This document shows, piece after piece, positions 34,548-41,868 of a DNA stretch of 64,000 nt (its first letter is position 1; each line of letters opens with the position of its first letter). A program made the position numbers and the translations under genes. The notes beneath the pieces were generated by a model. The model was not told the DNA's origin. It searched no databases and saw nothing but the letters and a program-made list of their open reading frames with translations. The stretch is from Candidatus Rokuibacteriota bacterium (GTDB lineage: Bacteria > Methylomirabilota > Methylomirabilia > Rokubacteriales > CSP1-6), in assembly GCA_003221695.1 (NCBI GenBank), contig QHSX01000043.1:1-64000 (forward strand), read 5' to 3'.

Positions 34548-34684
34548 TAAGCTGGGTCTACCGCGGGCTGCCACCGTGCGGTGGGATACACGAAGATTTC
34601 ACACCGTTTTGACGATACGCTCCGTCCCTCCGGCGACAATGACGGCAACGTCGCGAGAGGTTCCTCTCAGCCAAGGAGGCGGGA

Positions 34685-35212
34685 ATGCGGCGCTGGCGCT
34701 CTCGGCTCGTACTGCTTGCGGCATTCGTCGGATTCGGCGCCACGGCCGCTGCCGGCCAGGCGCTTCGGATCGGCGACCAGGCTCCGGACATCGCCGGGCA
34801 GCCGTGGATCAACACGGATCCCCTGACGATGCAGGGCCTGCGTGGCCGCGTGGTCCTCGTCGAGTTCTGGACGTACGGCTGAATCAACTGCCGCAATGTG
34901 ATCCCGCAGTTGCGGGGGTGGCACGAACGGTACGCGTCGGCGGGGCTCGCCGTGGTCGGCGTCCACAGCCCCGAGTTCTTCTGGGAGAAGCCGTACGATA
35001 AGGTCGTCGACGCGACGAAGCGGCTCGGCGTGCGCTACCCGGTCGTGCAGGACAACGACTTCGCGATCTGGACCCGGTTCGGCGTGCGAGCGTGGCCCAC
35101 ACTGGTCCTCGTGGACCGCAAAGGGGTCGTCCGGTACCGGCACATCGGCGAGGGCGACTATGCCGAGACCGAAGCCGTGATCCGGCGGCTCCTCGTCGAG
35201 GGAGGCTCGTAA
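34685..35212 (+). CDS. Periplasmic thioredoxin-like selenoprotein (UxxC) with in-frame UGA
   Basis: One gene read through a TGA at 34880-34882 (codon 66), 175 aa including selenocysteine. A signal peptide spans about residues 1-24 (LVLLAAFVGFGATAAAG). Then come redoxin features: LRIGDQAPDIAG, RGRVVLVEFWTYG, then the active site U-I-N-C, RNVIPQLRGWHERYASAGL, VVGVHSPEF, YPVVQDNDFAIWTRFGVRAW, PTLVLVDRKGVVRYRHIGEG. Relatives (TlpA/DipZ C-domain-like) read WTY-x-CINC here, so the TGA stands exactly where the catalytic first Cys belongs. Both sides are in one frame with strong coding character, which argues against a pseudogene. A SECIS-like hairpin follows the TGA. The ribosome site is aaggaggcggga before ATG 34685. 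Predicted role: thiol-disulfide exchange or peroxide reduction in the periplasm, next to a two-component system and msrPQ. Confidence 0.88.
34887..34919 (+). promoter_or_regulatory. Bacterial SECIS-like hairpin of the redoxin gene
   Basis: Stem CCGCAA/TTGCGG (34891-34896 with 34910-34915), extended by three more pairs past one G-G mismatch (34887-34889 with 34917-34919). The 13-base loop has G at its second position (34898), 16 bases after the UGA, which is inside the 16-37 range known for bacterial SECIS. A competing 7-bp stem (34885-34891 with 34906-34912) is possible. Confidence 0.6.
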
Positions 35213-36735
35213 TCGGCGCCCGCTCGCCGTCGACGTGGTTCTCGATTCTCGCGCTCGCCGCCATTGTGGCCCCGGCAACGGTCGTCGCGGTTCTGGGCTA
35301 CGTGTCCCTCCGCCAGTGGGAGACGGCGACGGATCTGCTCTTCCGCGAACAGGCGCGCGACCTCGCCGCGATGGCCGCCGAGAAGGTCGAGATGATGCTG
35401 CGTCACGCCGAGGACGCGTTTCTCGACCGGCTCCAGGCGGTGCTCGCGCGCGGAAGCGCGGACGCGCGCACGCTCGACGGACTCGTCGCGCAGTTCCCGC
35501 TGATCCGCCGGCTGTACGTCTTCGACCGACGTGACCGTCTCGTCTACCCGGGGGCGTGGTTGCACGAGGACGCCGCCGTCTTCCGCCCGCTGCTCGCGGG
35601 GACCCCGCCGGGCTTCTGGGAGCGCGGCGGCAAGCGCGCGCTCGTCTCCGGCGATCACGTGCTCCTCGCGACCCTCCTCAAGTCGCGCGGCGCGCCGGTG
35701 CTGGTGGCCGTCTCGCGCGATCTCGATGCGCTCCGGCGTGAGATCTTCGAGACGACGCTCGGCGGACTCGAGTCGCCCACCATCGTCGCGGTGGTCGACC
35801 ACCGCGGCCGACCGGTCTACAGCCGTACCTCGCTCGCGGGGGCCGAGCGTGTCCTCTCGGTGAGCTTCCGCGAGGGCCTGCCGAGCTGGAGCGTGGCTGT
35901 CTACGTGCCGCCGGGCGCGTCCCCACGACAGGCGGTGCAGCGGCAGGTCGCCGTCTTCACCGCCGCCTTCGGCGTGCTCCTGGCCGTGATCGTCGCCGGC
36001 ATCGTCCTCGCCTGGCGGCTCATGCGGCAGGAGGCGGAGATGGCCCAGCTCAAGTCCGATTTCGTCGCCAACGTCTCACACGACCTGAAGACGCCGCTGT
36101 CGGTCATCCGCATGTTCGGCGAGACGCTCGAGATGGGACGGGTGGCCGACGAGGGACGACGCCAGGAGTACTACCGAGTGATCACGCGCGAGAGCGAGCG
36201 GCTGTCCCGGCTCATCGACAACGTGCTCGACTTCTCGCGGATCGAGGGCGGTCGGCAGACCTACGACATGGTGCCGACGGCCGTCGAGCCCCTGATCCGG
36301 GAGACGCTCGAGGCGTTCGCGTCCCCCCTCGCTCAGCAGGGGTTCAAGGTCGAGACGCGGGTGGCGCCCGACCTTCCCGAGATCCCGATAGACGCCAATG
36401 CAGTCGGCCAGGCGTTGGCGAACCTGATCGACAACGCGATCAAGTACTCGCGCGACCGCCGCGCGATCGCCGTCGACGCGGCGCTCGCCGAGGGCGAGCT
36501 GGCGATCTCGGTCGTGGATGAGGGCGTGGGGATCCCTCCCGAAGAGCAGGGAAAGATCTTCGAGAAATTCTATCGCGTGGGGCGGAGCGAGACGCAGGGG
36601 CAGCGGGGCAGCGGCGTGGGATTAGCGCTCGTCAAACACGTGGCAGAGGCCCATCACGGCCGCGTCACGGTCGAGAGCCGACCGGGGACGGGGAGCCGCT
36701 TTACCCTGTGGCTCCCGGTGGTGGGCCGTGGCTAG
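35212..36735 (+). CDS. Sensor histidine kinase beside msrPQ (start uncertain)
   Basis: About 507 aa. TM1 (TWFSILALAAIVAPATVVAVLG), a periplasmic sensor of about 220 residues, TM2 (AAFGVLLAVIVAGIVLAWRLM), HisKA with FVANVSHDLKTPLSVIRMFG, then ATPase boxes ANLIDNAIKYS (N), VVDEGVGIPPEEQGKIFEKF (G1/F) and GSGVGLALVKHV (G2). The start is unresolved. In this frame the only ATG/GTG/TTG codons near are GTG 35092, deep inside the redoxin gene, and GTG 35266, which would remove most of TM1. Coding character begins near 35212, where ATC overlaps the TAA of the redoxin gene. The response regulator follows with an 8-base overlap. In E. coli the HprSR (YedVW) system beside msrPQ responds to oxidants; the same job is likely here. 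Confidence 0.85.
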   Translation: MGARSPSTWFSILALAAIVAPATVVAVLGYVSLRQWETATDLLFREQARDLAAMAAEKVEMMLRHAEDAFLDRLQAVLARGSADARTLDGLVAQFPLIRRLYVFDRRDRLVYPGAWLHEDAAVFRPLLAGTPPGFWERGGKRALVSGDHVLLATLLKSRGAPVLVAVSRDLDALRREIFETTLGGLESPTIVAVVDHRGRPVYSRTSLAGAERVLSVSFREGLPSWSVAVYVPPGASPRQAVQRQVAVFTAAFGVLLAVIVAGIVLAWRLMRQEAEMAQLKSDFVANVSHDLKTPLSVIRMFGETLEMGRVADEGRRQEYYRVITRESERLSRLIDNVLDFSRIEGGRQTYDMVPTAVEPLIRETLEAFASPLAQQGFKVETRVAPDLPEIPIDANAVGQALANLIDNAIKYSRDRRAIAVDAALAEGELAISVVDEGVGIPPEEQGKIFEKFYRVGRSETQGQRGSGVGLALVKHVAEAHHGRVTVESRPGTGSRFTLWLPVVGRG

Positions 36736-37408
36736 GATCCTGATCGCGGACGACGAGCCGGAGATCGTGCGCGGCCTCGAGGACAATCTGCGCTTCGAGG
36801 GGTACCAGACCGTCTCGGCGACGAATGGCCAAGACGCTATCGCGCTCGCCCTGAGCGACGCGCCCGACCTCGTGCTGCTCGACATCATGATGCCCAGGAT
36901 GAGCGGCTGGGACGTCTGCCGGGAGCTCCGCCGCCGCGGCGTGGACGTGCCCGTGATCATGCTCACCGCGCGCGGCGCCGAAGTCGACCGCGTGCTCGGC
37001 CTCGAGCTGGGCGCTGACGACTATGTCACCAAGCCCTTCTCGCTGCGCGAGCTCCTCGCCCGCGTGCGGGCGGTGCTGCGCCGCCCGGGGCCCCGGCAGA
37101 AGTTCGAGGAGTTCGCGTTCGGCGACGTACGGGTCCGCCCTCGTGGCCGACAGGTGTTCAAGGCCGGGTGCGAGGTGCGGATGACGCGGAAGGAGTTCGA
37201 CCTCCTGGTGTTCCTGGTCGAGCACCGTGGCGAGGTGATCACGCGCGAGCGGCTGCTCGACGAGGTCTGGGGTTACGAACGGTTCCCCACGACGCGCACC
37301 GTAGACACCCATGTTCTGAAACTCAGACGGAAGTTCGAGGCGGATCCCGACCGGCCCCGGTGGATTTTGACCGTCCACGGACAGGGTTACAGGTTCGCCA
37401 CCCTGTGA
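36728..37408 (+). CDS. OmpR/PhoB-family response regulator
   Basis: 226 aa, GTG start overlapping the kinase end. Receiver domain with acidic pocket ILIADDEPE, phospho-acceptor in [15 protein letters not shown], Thr in VIMLTARG and Lys in DDYVTKPFS. Winged-helix DNA-binding domain: [75 protein letters not shown]. The kinase just upstream is its partner and msrP starts 32 bases downstream, so msrPQ is the most likely target. Complete and normal length. Confidence 0.93.
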
Positions 37409-37440: not shown

Positions 37441-38388
37441 ATGCTGATCAGGCGCGCTCCACGGTTCACATCCAATGAGATCACCGACAGGAAGGTCTAT
37501 CTCTCCCGTCGGGAGTGGATGATCGGCGCCGCCGCGCTGACCCTCCTGCCCGGCGAGTGCGGGGCGGCGACCCCGCAGGGCGAGCCGCTCGGGGCGACCC
37601 GCAACGACGGGCTGAGCCTCAAGGAGCCGCCCACGAAGTTCGAGGCGGCGACGACCTACAACAACTTCTACGAGTTCGGCGTCAACAAGGACGACCCCGC
37701 GCGGCTCGCGCACACGCTCAAGCCGCGGCCGTGGACGGTCCAGGTGGACGGGCTCGTCCACAAGCCGAAGACATTCGACGTCGACGAGCTCAGCCGGCTG
37801 TTCCCGCTCGAGGAGCGGGTCTACGCGCTCCGCTGCGTCGAGGGATGGTCGATGGTCATTCCGTGGATCGGCTTCCCGCTCGCCTCGCTGCTCAAGCGGG
37901 TCGAGCCGACCGGGCAGGCGAAGTATGTCGAGTTCACGACGCTGCTCGACCCGAAGCAGTTTCCCGGCCAGCGGGCGAGCCTGTTCGGATTTGCGCTCGA
38001 CTGGCCCTATACGGAGGGGTTGCGCCTCGACGAGGCACTTCACCCGCTCACGCTCCTGACCGTCGGCATGTACGGCCAGGTTCTGTCGAACCAGAACGGC
38101 GCTCCCATCCGCGTGGTCGTGCCGTGGAAGTACGGGTTCAAGAGCGCGAAGTCGATCGTACGGATCCGGCTCACGAGTAACGAACCGCCGACCGCGTGGA
38201 ACAAGGCCGCGCCGCGGGAGTACGGCTTCTACTCGAACGTCAACCCCGCGGTCGATCACCCGCGCTGGAGCCAGGCCACCGAGCGGCGGATCGGCGAGTT
38301 CCGGCGCCGTTCCACGCTGCCCTTCAACGGCTACGGCGACCAGGTGAGGCACCTCTACGCCGGCATGGATCTCAAGAAGTACTACTAG
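37441..38388 (+). CDS. msrP: Periplasmic methionine sulfoxide reductase catalytic subunit MsrP
   Basis: 315 aa. Molybdenum-cofactor enzyme that repairs oxidised Met in periplasmic proteins. Tat signal with twin arginine ([13 protein letters not shown], Arg23-Arg24). The Mo-ligating Cys is in [16 protein letters not shown] (Cys132). Family blocks: [93 protein letters not shown] 37441 has agggaggagg upstream and gives the complete Tat signal. It is 32 bases behind the response regulator and 7 before msrQ. All known key residues are present. Confidence 0.95.
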
Positions 38389-38395
38389 AGCGTCC

Positions 38396-39046
38396 GTGTC
38401 GCGTCGCGCCCGGATCGCCCTGAAGGCAATGATCTGGGGGGGGTGTCTCGTTCCTCTCGCGACGCTCGTGTACTGGTTCGTGCGCGACGACCTGACCGCG
38501 AATCCGATCAGTTTCGTCACGACCACGCTCGGCGACTGGACGCTCCGGATTCTGCTGGCCTCGCTCGCGATGACGCCACTCCGGCTCGTCCTCGGCGTCG
38601 CGTGGCCGATCACCCTCCGGCGGCTCCTGGGGCTCTTCGCCTTCTTCTACGTGTGCGTGCACTTCAGCGTGTGGATCGTGCTCGACTTCTTCTTCGACTG
38701 GCCTCGGATGTGGGCGGACATCCTGAAGCGGCCCTACATCACGATGGGCATGCTCGGGCTCCTCTCGCTGGTCCCGCTCGCCGCCACGTCGACGGCGGGG
38801 ATGATCAAGCGGCTTGGCGCCCGAAGGTGGCGGCGTCTGCACCGGCTCGCGTATGTCGCCGGGGTTGCCGGTTGCGTCCACTTCCTGTGGCTGGCGAAGG
38901 TCGGGCGCACGGACCAGTACTGGTACGTGGCGACGCTCGTCCTTCTGCTCGGGATCCGCCTCGGCGACGCCGCCCTTCGGGCCGTGCGGCGGCGGCGCGC
39001 GCGGCGGGCGGCAGCGGTCGCGACGGCGGGAATCCGCGTGCCTTGA
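38396..39046 (+). CDS. msrQ: Heme-binding membrane subunit MsrQ (ferric reductase-like)
   Basis: 216 aa, six predicted helices. MsrQ passes quinol or flavin electrons through b-hemes to MsrP. Heme-ligand His residues lie in FYVCVHFSVWIVLDF and in RRLHRLAYVAGVAGCVHFLW; the motif TLRRLLGLFAFFYV and WRRLHRLAYVAG are family signatures. The GTG start is seven bases after msrP. Its stop is 36 bases before a 44-bp tandem repeat array. Confidence 0.92.
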   Translation: MSRRARIALKAMIWGGCLVPLATLVYWFVRDDLTANPISFVTTTLGDWTLRILLASLAMTPLRLVLGVAWPITLRRLLGLFAFFYVCVHFSVWIVLDFFFDWPRMWADILKRPYITMGMLGLLSLVPLAATSTAGMIKRLGARRWRRLHRLAYVAGVAGCVHFLWLAKVGRTDQYWYVATLVLLLGIRLGDAALRAVRRRRARRAAAVATAGIRVP

Positions 39047-39082: not shown

Positions 39083-39222
39083 GTCGTGCGAGCCGCAGCC
39101 GCAGGCGAGGCGAGTCGGTGAATCCAGTCGTGCGAGCCGCAGCCGCAGGCGAGGCGAGTCGGTGAATCCAGTCGTGCGAGCCGCAGCCGCAGGCGAGGCG
39201 AGTCGGTGAATCCAGTCGTGCG
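39083..39222 (+). repeat. 44-bp tandem repeat, three full copies plus 8 bases
   Basis: Units at 39083-39126, 39127-39170 and 39171-39214 are identical, and the first eight bases of a fourth follow (39215-39222). Each unit begins gtcgtgcgagccgcagccgc and ends gtcggtgaatcca. The array lies between msrQ and the M16 peptidase gene. The GTG start of the peptidase (39206) is inside unit 3, and each copy carries the same GTGAATCCA. 44 is not a multiple of three, so copy number would not simply lengthen a protein. Confidence 0.95.
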
Positions 39223-40561
39223 GACCTTTGGAGTACGCGGGGCCCTCCTCGGCGCGGTCCTGCTGCTGGCATCGGGATGTGCGGCGGTCGGCGCTTATTC
39301 GGCGACGTCCGCGGGGCCGCCGATGCCGGTTCGCGAGGTCCTGCCGAACGGGGTGGTGCTGATCGCGCAGGAGCACCGGGCGAGCGACGTCGTGGCCGTG
39401 CAGCTGTGGATGCGGATGGGCGGGCGCGACGAGGCTCCCGACGAGCTCGGGCTCGCACACTACATCGAGCACATGATCTTCAAGGGCACGCCGACCTATC
39501 CGCCCGGGTCAATCGATCGCCTGATCGAGGGGTTCGGCGGGACGAGCAACGCCTTCACCTCGTACGACACGACCCACTACGATTTCGTGGTCCCGGCCGA
39601 GCACCTACGCGCGACCGTCGCGCTGCTCGCGGACCTCGCGATGAACGCGAGCTTCCCGCCCGACGAGATCGAGCGCGAGAAGAAAGTGGTATTCGAGGAG
39701 ATGAACCTGGTCGAGGACGACCCGGACAAGTTCCTCGTGCGCCGCCTCTACGAGGTGGCGTACGCGCCGCATCCCTACGGCCGGCCGCTCCTCGGCACGC
39801 GCGAGTTCATCGAGCGCCTGCGGCGCGACCAACTGCTGGCGTTCTATCGCAAGCACTTCGTGCCGAAGAGTATGGCGGTGGTCGTGGTCGGCGCCGTCAC
39901 GCCCGGGGAGGTTCGGTCCGCCGCGGTGGCGACCTTCGGGCGGATTCCGCCGGGGTCGGCCGGCCGGCCGGAGCTGTCGCCGCCGCCCACGATCGACCGG
40001 AGCCGGCGTGTGGACGTCCAGCGTCCCGAGCAGCAGGCGTACCTCGGCCTTGCGTGGAAGACGGCCCCGACCGGCGACGAGGACATCTACCCCGTGGACC
40101 TGCTGACCTACATCCTGGGCGACTCGCCGAGCTCCCGCCTGAACCAGGCGGTCCGCGAGCGGCAGCGCCTCGTCTCGTCGATCGAAGCGGGCTACGGCGC
40201 CTGGCAGAAGGCGGGCCTCGTCACGGTCAATGCGCGGCTCGACCCGGAGAACGCGGAGAAGGCGGAGGCCGCGATCCTCGACGTGATCCGGAAGGTGCGC
40301 GAGACGGGAGTGACGGAGGCGGAGCGGCAGCGGGCGATCATCACCGCGGAGTCCTCGTACGCGTTCGACATCGAGACGGCCGAGGGGCTCGCGAAAGCGT
40401 ACGGCCAGGCCGAAACCACCTGGACGCTCGCGGACGAGGTCGCCTACCTCGGACGGCTCCGCCAGATCGGCGCCGCGGAGATCCAGGCCGTCGCGCGCAA
40501 GTACTTCGGCGACGACACCTACGCGCGCGTGCGGTTCATTCCGACGGGACCCCCGAGGTGA
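39206..40561 (+). CDS. M16 family zinc metallopeptidase (catalytic member), lipoprotein
   Basis: 451 aa. GTG 39206 inside the last repeat unit yields MNPVVRTFG... and a lipoprotein signal with lipobox LLASGC (Cys25). The inverted zinc motif HxxEH is intact: LAHYIEHMIFKGTP (His85, Glu88, His89), with the distal Glu in KKVVFEEMNLVEDDPDKF. The second M16 half (LTYILGDSPSSRLNQAVRER) is present. It forms a likely heterodimer with the next protein, as in other bacterial PqqL/YmxG-type pairs, and would degrade peptides in the periplasm. The next gene overlaps by four bases. Confidence 0.9.
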   Translation: MNPVVRTFGVRGALLGAVLLLASGCAAVGAYSATSAGPPMPVREVLPNGVVLIAQEHRASDVVAVQLWMRMGGRDEAPDELGLAHYIEHMIFKGTPTYPPGSIDRLIEGFGGTSNAFTSYDTTHYDFVVPAEHLRATVALLADLAMNASFPPDEIEREKKVVFEEMNLVEDDPDKFLVRRLYEVAYAPHPYGRPLLGTREFIERLRRDQLLAFYRKHFVPKSMAVVVVGAVTPGEVRSAAVATFGRIPPGSAGRPELSPPPTIDRSRRVDVQRPEQQAYLGLAWKTAPTGDEDIYPVDLLTYILGDSPSSRLNQAVRERQRLVSSIEAGYGAWQKAGLVTVNARLDPENAEKAEAAILDVIRKVRETGVTEAERQRAIITAESSYAFDIETAEGLAKAYGQAETTWTLADEVAYLGRLRQIGAAEIQAVARKYFGDDTYARVRFIPTGPPR

Positions 40562-41868
40562 CGGCCGGAACCCGCCGCGCGGCGGCCCTCGGCCTCGTCG
40601 GTCTGCTGGCCGTCGGCGTCCTCGTGGTACCCTCCGCGGCGCTCGCCGAGAGCCGCCGGGAACGGCTCGACAACGGCCTGACGGTCATCGTCCGCGAGAA
40701 TCCCGTTGCGCCGGTCGTCGCCGTGTCGCTGCTCGTGAAGATGGGGACGCGCTGGGAGGCGCCGGCGACGGCCGGCATCGCGAACTTCGTCCATGCGGTG
40801 ATGGTGAAGGGGACCGCGAAGCGGACGGGCGCCGAGCTCGCCGAGGCCGTCGCGGCGCTCGGCGGCAAGATCAGCGCGACGGGCGACGTCGACTACTCGG
40901 AGATTCGCGCGTCTTCGCTCGCGCGCTTCTGGCGCGACCTGCTCGGTTTTGTGGCGGAGCTCGCCCTCGAACCGACGTTGCTGCCGGACGACGTGGATCG
41001 GGAGCGCGACTGGCTGCTGAGCCGGGTGCAGAAGCGACGTGACAACGCGTCGTCACGCGCCTTCGACGCGTTCTACGCGGCGCTCTACGGCCCGCACCCG
41101 TACGCCTTGCCCGTCCTGGGGACCCCCGAGTCGCTCGCGCGTATCGATCACGCCGCGATTGTCGCCGCCTATCGCGCGGGCTACCGACCCGACCGGATGG
41201 TGCTGGCGGTCAGCGGCCAGGTCGCGGCCTCCGAGGTGCTCGCCGAGGCCCAGCGCCGCTTCGGCGGTGTGGCGCGAGACGGCGCCGGCGTGGACCCGCC
41301 CGTCCCCGCGCCGATCGCGTCCGCCAGGCGGGTCGAGCTCGAGATGCCGGCTCAGCAGTCCCAAATCCTGGCGGGCTCCCTCGCGCCTCCCCTCGACCAT
41401 CCTGACCACGCCGCCGTGAAGGTGCTCTCGACGATCCTCGGCGGCGGCATGGCCGGACGGCTCTTCGCCGAGCTGCGTGACAAGCAGGGCCTCGCCTATA
41501 CCGCGACCTCCTACTACGACCCCGTGCGTGAGCCCGGAGCGCTCGTGCTCTATCTCGGCACGGCGCCCGAGAACGCGCCGAAGGCTGAAGCGGCGCTCCT
41601 CGCGGAAGTCGAGCGGATTCGTCGCGACCCCGTCTCGACCGAGGAGCTCACGCGGGCGAAGGGGTATCTTCTCGGCCGCTACGCCATGGATCGACGCACG
41701 AACGAGCGCCTGGCGTGGTACCTCGCGTTCTACGCTGTCGAGGGGCAACCGCCCGATTTTCCGGAGCGCTACAGGCAGGCCGTGGAAGCGGTGTCGACCG
41801 CGGATATTCTTCGCGTGGCCCGCCGCTACCTCGCCACACTCACGACGCTGGTCGTCCGGGCCCGCTGA
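40558..41868 (+). CDS. M16 peptidase-like partner without the zinc motif
   Basis: 436 aa, GTG start overlapping the preceding stop (GTGA). The signal peptide (AAALGLVGLLAVGVLVVPSAALA) is followed by a full M16 fold: RERLDNGLTVIVRENPVAPV, LPVLGTPESLARIDHAAIVA, VKVLSTILGGGMAGRLFAEL, RDKQGLAYTATSYYDP. The zinc-binding HxxEH position reads NFVHAVMVKGT, so Glu and second His are missing. It is therefore the non-catalytic substrate-binding half of a heterodimer with the 39206 protein, a known arrangement in this family. Confidence 0.88.
   Translation: MTAGTRRAAALGLVGLLAVGVLVVPSAALAESRRERLDNGLTVIVRENPVAPVVAVSLLVKMGTRWEAPATAGIANFVHAVMVKGTAKRTGAELAEAVAALGGKISATGDVDYSEIRASSLARFWRDLLGFVAELALEPTLLPDDVDRERDWLLSRVQKRRDNASSRAFDAFYAALYGPHPYALPVLGTPESLARIDHAAIVAAYRAGYRPDRMVLAVSGQVAASEVLAEAQRRFGGVARDGAGVDPPVPAPIASARRVELEMPAQQSQILAGSLAPPLDHPDHAAVKVLSTILGGGMAGRLFAELRDKQGLAYTATSYYDPVREPGALVLYLGTAPENAPKAEAALLAEVERIRRDPVSTEELTRAKGYLLGRYAMDRRTNERLAWYLAFYAVEGQPPDFPERYRQAVEAVSTADILRVARRYLATLTTLVVRAR

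Follow-up and report, generated by a model that had tools for sequence, protein, structure and literature searches.

Does an in-frame TGA in a thioredoxin-like gene of a Rokubacterium break the gene, or does it encode selenocysteine (Sec), and what might the product do? The gene, here called the redoxin gene, lies in the window (the whole stretch of 64,000 nucleotides that we analyzed). Its main features are:

34673-34679, + strand: Shine-Dalgarno-like AAGGAGG, read directly, 5 nt 5' of the start codon
34685-35212, + strand: predicted thioredoxin-like selenoprotein gene, 175 residues (Sec66, Cys69), continuous with TGA read as U; DipZ homologue
34880-34882, + strand: in-frame UGA, predicted Sec codon 66 of a UINC motif; Cys69 is encoded at 34889-34891

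One reading frame continues across the TGA

We found that a single frame extends from the ATG at 34685 to a TAA at 35210-35212, and that its sole interruption is the TGA at codon 66. This TGA occupies the first Cys position of a C-I-N-C motif. Mechanical ORF calling yields a 65 aa ORF (34685-34882) and a GTG-started ORF of 104 aa (34898-35212), the split that the original prediction had expected from a gene finder. That prediction also held that the frame is the same on both sides of the TGA, and this was borne out by homology and by selection. The read-through product matches Pfam AhpC-TSA and Redoxin, and residues 30-171 align with DipZ (2hyx; phmmer, E 9e-42) with no break at the TGA. Purifying selection was evident on both sides: dN/dS measured with 11 relatives was 0.14-0.58 upstream and 0.12-0.27 downstream.

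The host genome encodes the Sec machinery

All four genes sought for Sec synthesis and decoding were present in the host genome (G000; 4.6 Mb, completeness 100). selA (588 bits), selB (373 bits), selD (337 bits) and the tRNA-Sec (69.8 bits; anticodon UCA) all scored above curated cut-offs. selA, the tRNA-Sec gene (selC) and selB are clustered on one contig (C52). selD is on another (C35) and itself contains an in-frame TGA.

The host genome has two further likely selenoproteins. One is ResA/TlpA-like with the motif FWATW-U-PDC (L003 1501-1860; G000:C14:7591-7950), and another is a peroxiredoxin with the motif TPG-U-STC (L006 1501-1956; G000:C79:29700-30155). A search for a Sec cytochrome family gave a score below the cut-off.

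Homologues have TGA or a Cys codon at position 66

We read codon 66 in 87 homologues, codon by codon. It was TGA in 43 and TGC or TGT in 44, and no other codon was found. The 43 homologues with TGA span many genera and several families. In the host's family, 45 of 57 genomes had a match, nearly all with one TGA, and the same pattern was found through the host's class. Outside the Methylomirabilota, a Chloroflexi MAG carries a Sec form of the redoxin domain (FWTYS-U-INC; L169 6001-6426) and a SECIS-like hairpin of its own.

Two Rokubacteria of one genus (G010 and G011) have TGC at codon 66. Both retain tRNA-Sec and selB (the G011 selB is partial, at a contig end). Because they have TGC despite keeping these genes, we interpret the codons as a change from Sec to Cys within a lineage that uses Sec.

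These results bear on two other explanations of the TGA. A nonsense mutation, pseudogene or sequencing error would leave a broken gene that yields only fragments, and plain ORF calling does give two. However, the TGA is conserved exactly at the catalytic codon in the 43 homologues, which argues against a sequencing error, and purifying selection persists downstream of it. We rejected this explanation and consider its probability negligible. Alternatively, UGA might have a new meaning throughout the genome (e.g., Trp) or be read through as some other amino acid, consistent with in-frame TGA codons in several genes of the host genome. But TGA is the ordinary stop codon of the nearby response regulator gene, msrQ and both M16 peptidase genes, indicating that the code is not reassigned. 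In addition, the homologues have Cys, and never Trp or Gly, at codon 66, and the host has the full Sec machinery. Reassignment was also rejected, as extremely improbable.

A conserved hairpin follows the TGA

34902-34917, + strand: candidate bSECIS hairpin, U-CCCGC (AGUU) GCGGG-G, loop at 34908-34911 with G second in the apical loop; found in 39/39 close Sec forms, with double-sided changes

A SECIS-like hairpin had been predicted 16 bases downstream of the TGA. The hairpin itself held up; the distance was only approximate, with 25 nt separating the UGA from the loop. The arms pair 34902/3-34907 with 34912-34916/7, giving a stem of 5-6 bp. By published criteria (PMC13188914), a bSECIS has a stem of 4-16 bp and a 3-9 nt loop in which one of the first two positions is G, and the loop lies 16-37 nt after the UGA. 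The loop, stem and spacing of the redoxin hairpin all fall within these limits.

We found that Sec forms conserve the hairpin, and Cys forms do not. It was present in 43/43 Sec forms, with a score of 16.5 compared to 8.6 in synonymous shuffles. The score in Cys forms (5.45) was that of their shuffles (5.44). Synonymous divergence over codons +5 to +13 was 0.07 in Sec forms, compared to 0.37 in the rest of the gene and 0.65 in Cys forms. At codons 73-77 there was no synonymous change in close Sec forms; Cys forms gave 0.5-0.8 at these codons. Leu76 is TTG in 36/36 cases, although TTG accounts for ~6% of the other Leu codons in these genes. When the set was extended to class-level and paralogous Sec genes, double-sided stem changes were found in 11 cells; 0/500 shuffles were as high and all slid versions were lower. 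The sequences in this set are related and were partly picked for diversity, so the count is support and not a probability.

Other stems occupy the same place in more distant Sec forms: GCCUUG-GGU-CAAGGC in those from Methylomirabilis-type genomes and UUCCUUC-GGU-GAAGGAA in the Chloroflexi MAG. Among the Rokubacteria with TGC, G010 has kept the stem and lost the loop G (AAUU), and G011 has lost the whole hairpin.

The significance of the hairpin comes from its conservation and not from the window sequence alone, as the window copy by itself did not differ significantly from synonymous-codon shuffles (p=0.16). In single-sequence folding of the window copy the minimum-energy structure was an alternative hairpin, and we therefore did not take single folds as evidence. 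An Rfam scan of 32-42 kb gave no match at E up to 1. Based on the sequence comparisons, we conclude that UGA 66 is almost certainly decoded as Sec by SelB and tRNA-Sec, helped by the hairpin at 34902-34917.

The product resembles the DipZ C-terminal domain

The AlphaFold2 model (window protein plus 31 relatives) had a pLDDT of 90.3. Confidence was low over approximately residues 1-25, which, judged by eye, probably form an export signal:

34685-34759, + strand: probable N-terminal export signal, ~residues 1-25, by inspection; Arg-rich start, hydrophobic stretch, AAAG/Q

The best PDB match in Foldseek was the C-terminal domain of DipZ (TM 0.81, 43% identity), followed by SOQ1 and NHLRC2, and then ResA. 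The active site, FWTYGUINC, fits the FW-x-x-x-C-x-N-C pattern of the DipZ/NHLRC2-type thioredoxin-like domain. Of the earlier label "TlpA/DipZ-like", the DipZ part stands, extended to NHLRC2, and the TlpA part does not. The redoxin fell short of the NCBIfam cut-offs for TlpA (28.3 bits, cut-off 230), ResA (57.4, cut-off 170) and DsbE (37.8, cut-off 123), and no NCBIfam model scored above its cut-off.

Relatives contain a second selenoprotein, which is NHLRC2-like: a thioredoxin-like domain with the motif FWTFC-U-INC, followed by an NHL-repeat-like propeller. We found it at loci L206, L207, L208, L209, L210 and L211 (genomes G041, G002, G003, G045, G044 and G005, respectively), with a SECIS-like hairpin (UUCCGC-AGUU-GCGGAA), and did not find it in the window's own genome. 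With this protein, the family to which human NHLRC2 belongs would have a Sec form.

The redoxin gene lies in a conserved cluster with msrPQ

The original prediction missed that the redoxin gene belongs to an MsrPQ cluster. Downstream of it are:

35212-36735, + strand: sensor histidine kinase (HisKA and HATPase_c), sensor region unrecognized, start codon uncertain here
36728-37408, + strand: OmpR/PhoB-type response regulator
37441-38388, + strand: msrP, catalytic subunit of periplasmic protein-methionine-sulfoxide reductase (NF003767, 471.8 bits, cut-off 207)
38396-39046, + strand: msrQ, haem-binding membrane subunit (NF003831, 144.8 bits, cut-off 130)

No recognized sensor domain was found in the sensor region of the kinase. 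In the window (39206-41868), as in many relatives, a pair of M16 peptidase genes comes after msrQ.

We found three gene orders in relatives: redoxin-kinase-regulator-msrP-msrQ, redoxin-msrP-msrQ, and msrP-msrQ-redoxin-kinase-regulator. The majority of relatives within the family have the redoxin gene either first in the five-gene order or immediately next to msrPQ. In 13 relatives the redoxin gene is beside msrPQ with no intervening kinase gene. We searched independently for msrP in 95 genomes of the phylum, of which 47 have both msrP and redoxin. msrP was ≤8 kb from the redoxin gene in 33 of the 47, all in the host's family, and in the other 14 the two were on different contigs. Outside the host's family, the phylum had few redoxin/msrP pairs and none was linked. 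In nine genomes, some of them incomplete, redoxin was present and msrP was not found.

Beyond the phylum, a Cys form adjoins msrPQ in an Anaerolineales MAG (L158), and a Sec form does so in a MAG labelled Syntrophobacter. In Xanthomonadaceae and Actinobacteria, Cys forms adjoin kinase/regulator pairs. Many homologues in other phyla are located away from msrPQ.

In 16/26 relatives with both genes, the redoxin gene runs 4 nt into the kinase gene (NTGA: ATGA, GTGA or CTGA); in 7 of these 16 the kinase start would be CTG, which is less certain. In the window the overlap site reads GTAA, and the sole upstream ATG, GTG or TTG in the kinase frame is the GTG at 35092, inside the redoxin gene. Promoter and terminator scans found nothing. 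The gene order is conserved, and we infer that redoxin, sensor kinase, response regulator, msrP and msrQ form one transcript.

Possible roles of the redoxin

As judged from sequence, the locus very likely encodes a UxxC selenoprotein redoxin (Sec66-Ile-Asn-Cys69), probably exported, that heads a conserved MsrPQ cluster and may have a role in the repair of periplasmic oxidative damage. In the periplasm, the redoxin might work as a fast thiol/selenol reductase or peroxidase that acts on oxidized cysteines or oxidants. MsrPQ, fed from the respiratory chain, would repair oxidized methionines alongside it, and the linked two-component system would switch on both. The fold and neighborhood suggest, with about an even chance of being right, that the redoxin is a periplasmic thiol/selenol branch beside MsrPQ, with both under the linked two-component system. 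The redoxin itself would probably be reduced by a CcdA/DsbD-type membrane carrier. Against this reading, MsrPQ is not known to require a thiol partner.

Our results might also indicate that the Sec redoxin functions in general periplasmic disulfide reduction, or in maturation of cytochrome c or a cofactor, and that its adjacency to msrPQ reflects shared regulation only. This is quite possible, if somewhat less than an even bet: the fold is also near ResA/DsbE-type enzymes, many homologues in other phyla are away from msrPQ, and nine genomes had redoxin with no msrP found. Against it is the tight clustering with msrPQ in 33 genomes of the family, in at least three gene orders. Alternatively, the redoxin could be a redox input to the two-component system and not a repair enzyme, a notion that fits the NTGA overlap in 16/26 relatives and the Cys forms beside kinase/regulator pairs in Xanthomonadaceae and Actinobacteria. 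We think this unlikely; in 13 relatives the redoxin gene is beside msrPQ with no kinase gene between.

Because the redoxin and kinase genes overlap in most relatives, we also propose a selenium gate, although we regard it as speculative and improbable. When selenium is low, ribosomes would leave at UGA 66, less sensor kinase would be translated, and MsrPQ induction would be tuned to selenium. If so, a single operon would couple selenium metabolism to the repair of methionines in the envelope.

Relation to known systems and significance

The original prediction was right that Sec in UxxC motifs of thioredoxin-fold proteins is established. UxxC redoxin selenoproteins are a catalogued kind: Table 1 of PMC13188914 lists a UxxC 'Redoxin family protein' (PF08534, HEU0032618.1) and a 'Prx-like thiol:disulfide oxidoreductase' (PF00578), which share with the window redoxin the UxxC motif and the Pfam domains AhpC-TSA and Redoxin. 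These entries are broad and come without operon or function, and HEU0032618.1 was compared with the window redoxin by its table description only.

Among solved structures, the C-terminal domain of Mycobacterium tuberculosis DipZ (2hyx, 5cyy; 43-44% identity; motif CINC) is closest in both sequence and fold. In DipZ the residue is Cys and the domain belongs to a larger protein, whereas the window redoxin has a predicted Sec, is free-standing and is predicted to be exported. Human NHLRC2 and plant SOQ1 have a thioredoxin-like domain of the same subfamily. In contrast to the window redoxin, they have Cys and a fused NHL propeller.

MsrPQ repairs oxidized methionines in the periplasm with electrons from the respiratory chain, and in Escherichia coli it is induced by oxidants via a two-component system (PMC9302797, PMC8945050). 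In that species, HprSR is the two-component system that controls msrPQ, whose products repair periplasmic proteins (PMC9302797). The E. coli hiuH-msrPQ operon with HprSR (PMC9302797) resembles the window cluster in linking msrP and msrQ to a two-component system. However, it has no thioredoxin-like selenoprotein, and PhoB-like models give the window response regulator a higher score than HprR does.

In the open-access literature we found no selenoprotein linked to MsrP or MsrQ, none in Rokubacteria, and no described family for a DipZ-like Sec redoxin. UxxC redoxin selenoproteins are known, and we did not find the DipZ-like subfamily and its MsrPQ cluster described in that literature.

The Methylomirabilota include a MAG recently reported to have the largest predicted bacterial selenoproteome, as cited in PMC13188914. 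Annotation pipelines will miss or split the redoxin in Rokubacteria and related Methylomirabilota, which are uncultured bacteria of soil and groundwater. The natural Sec-to-Cys change in one Rokubacterial genus, with its decaying SECIS, provides a ready comparison. Many UxxC redoxin selenoproteins have no assigned role; for one of them, the conserved association with MsrPQ now points to a function that can be tested. The presence of the redoxin in one conserved cluster with a periplasmic repair system suggests that selenium helps these bacteria repair oxidized envelope proteins.
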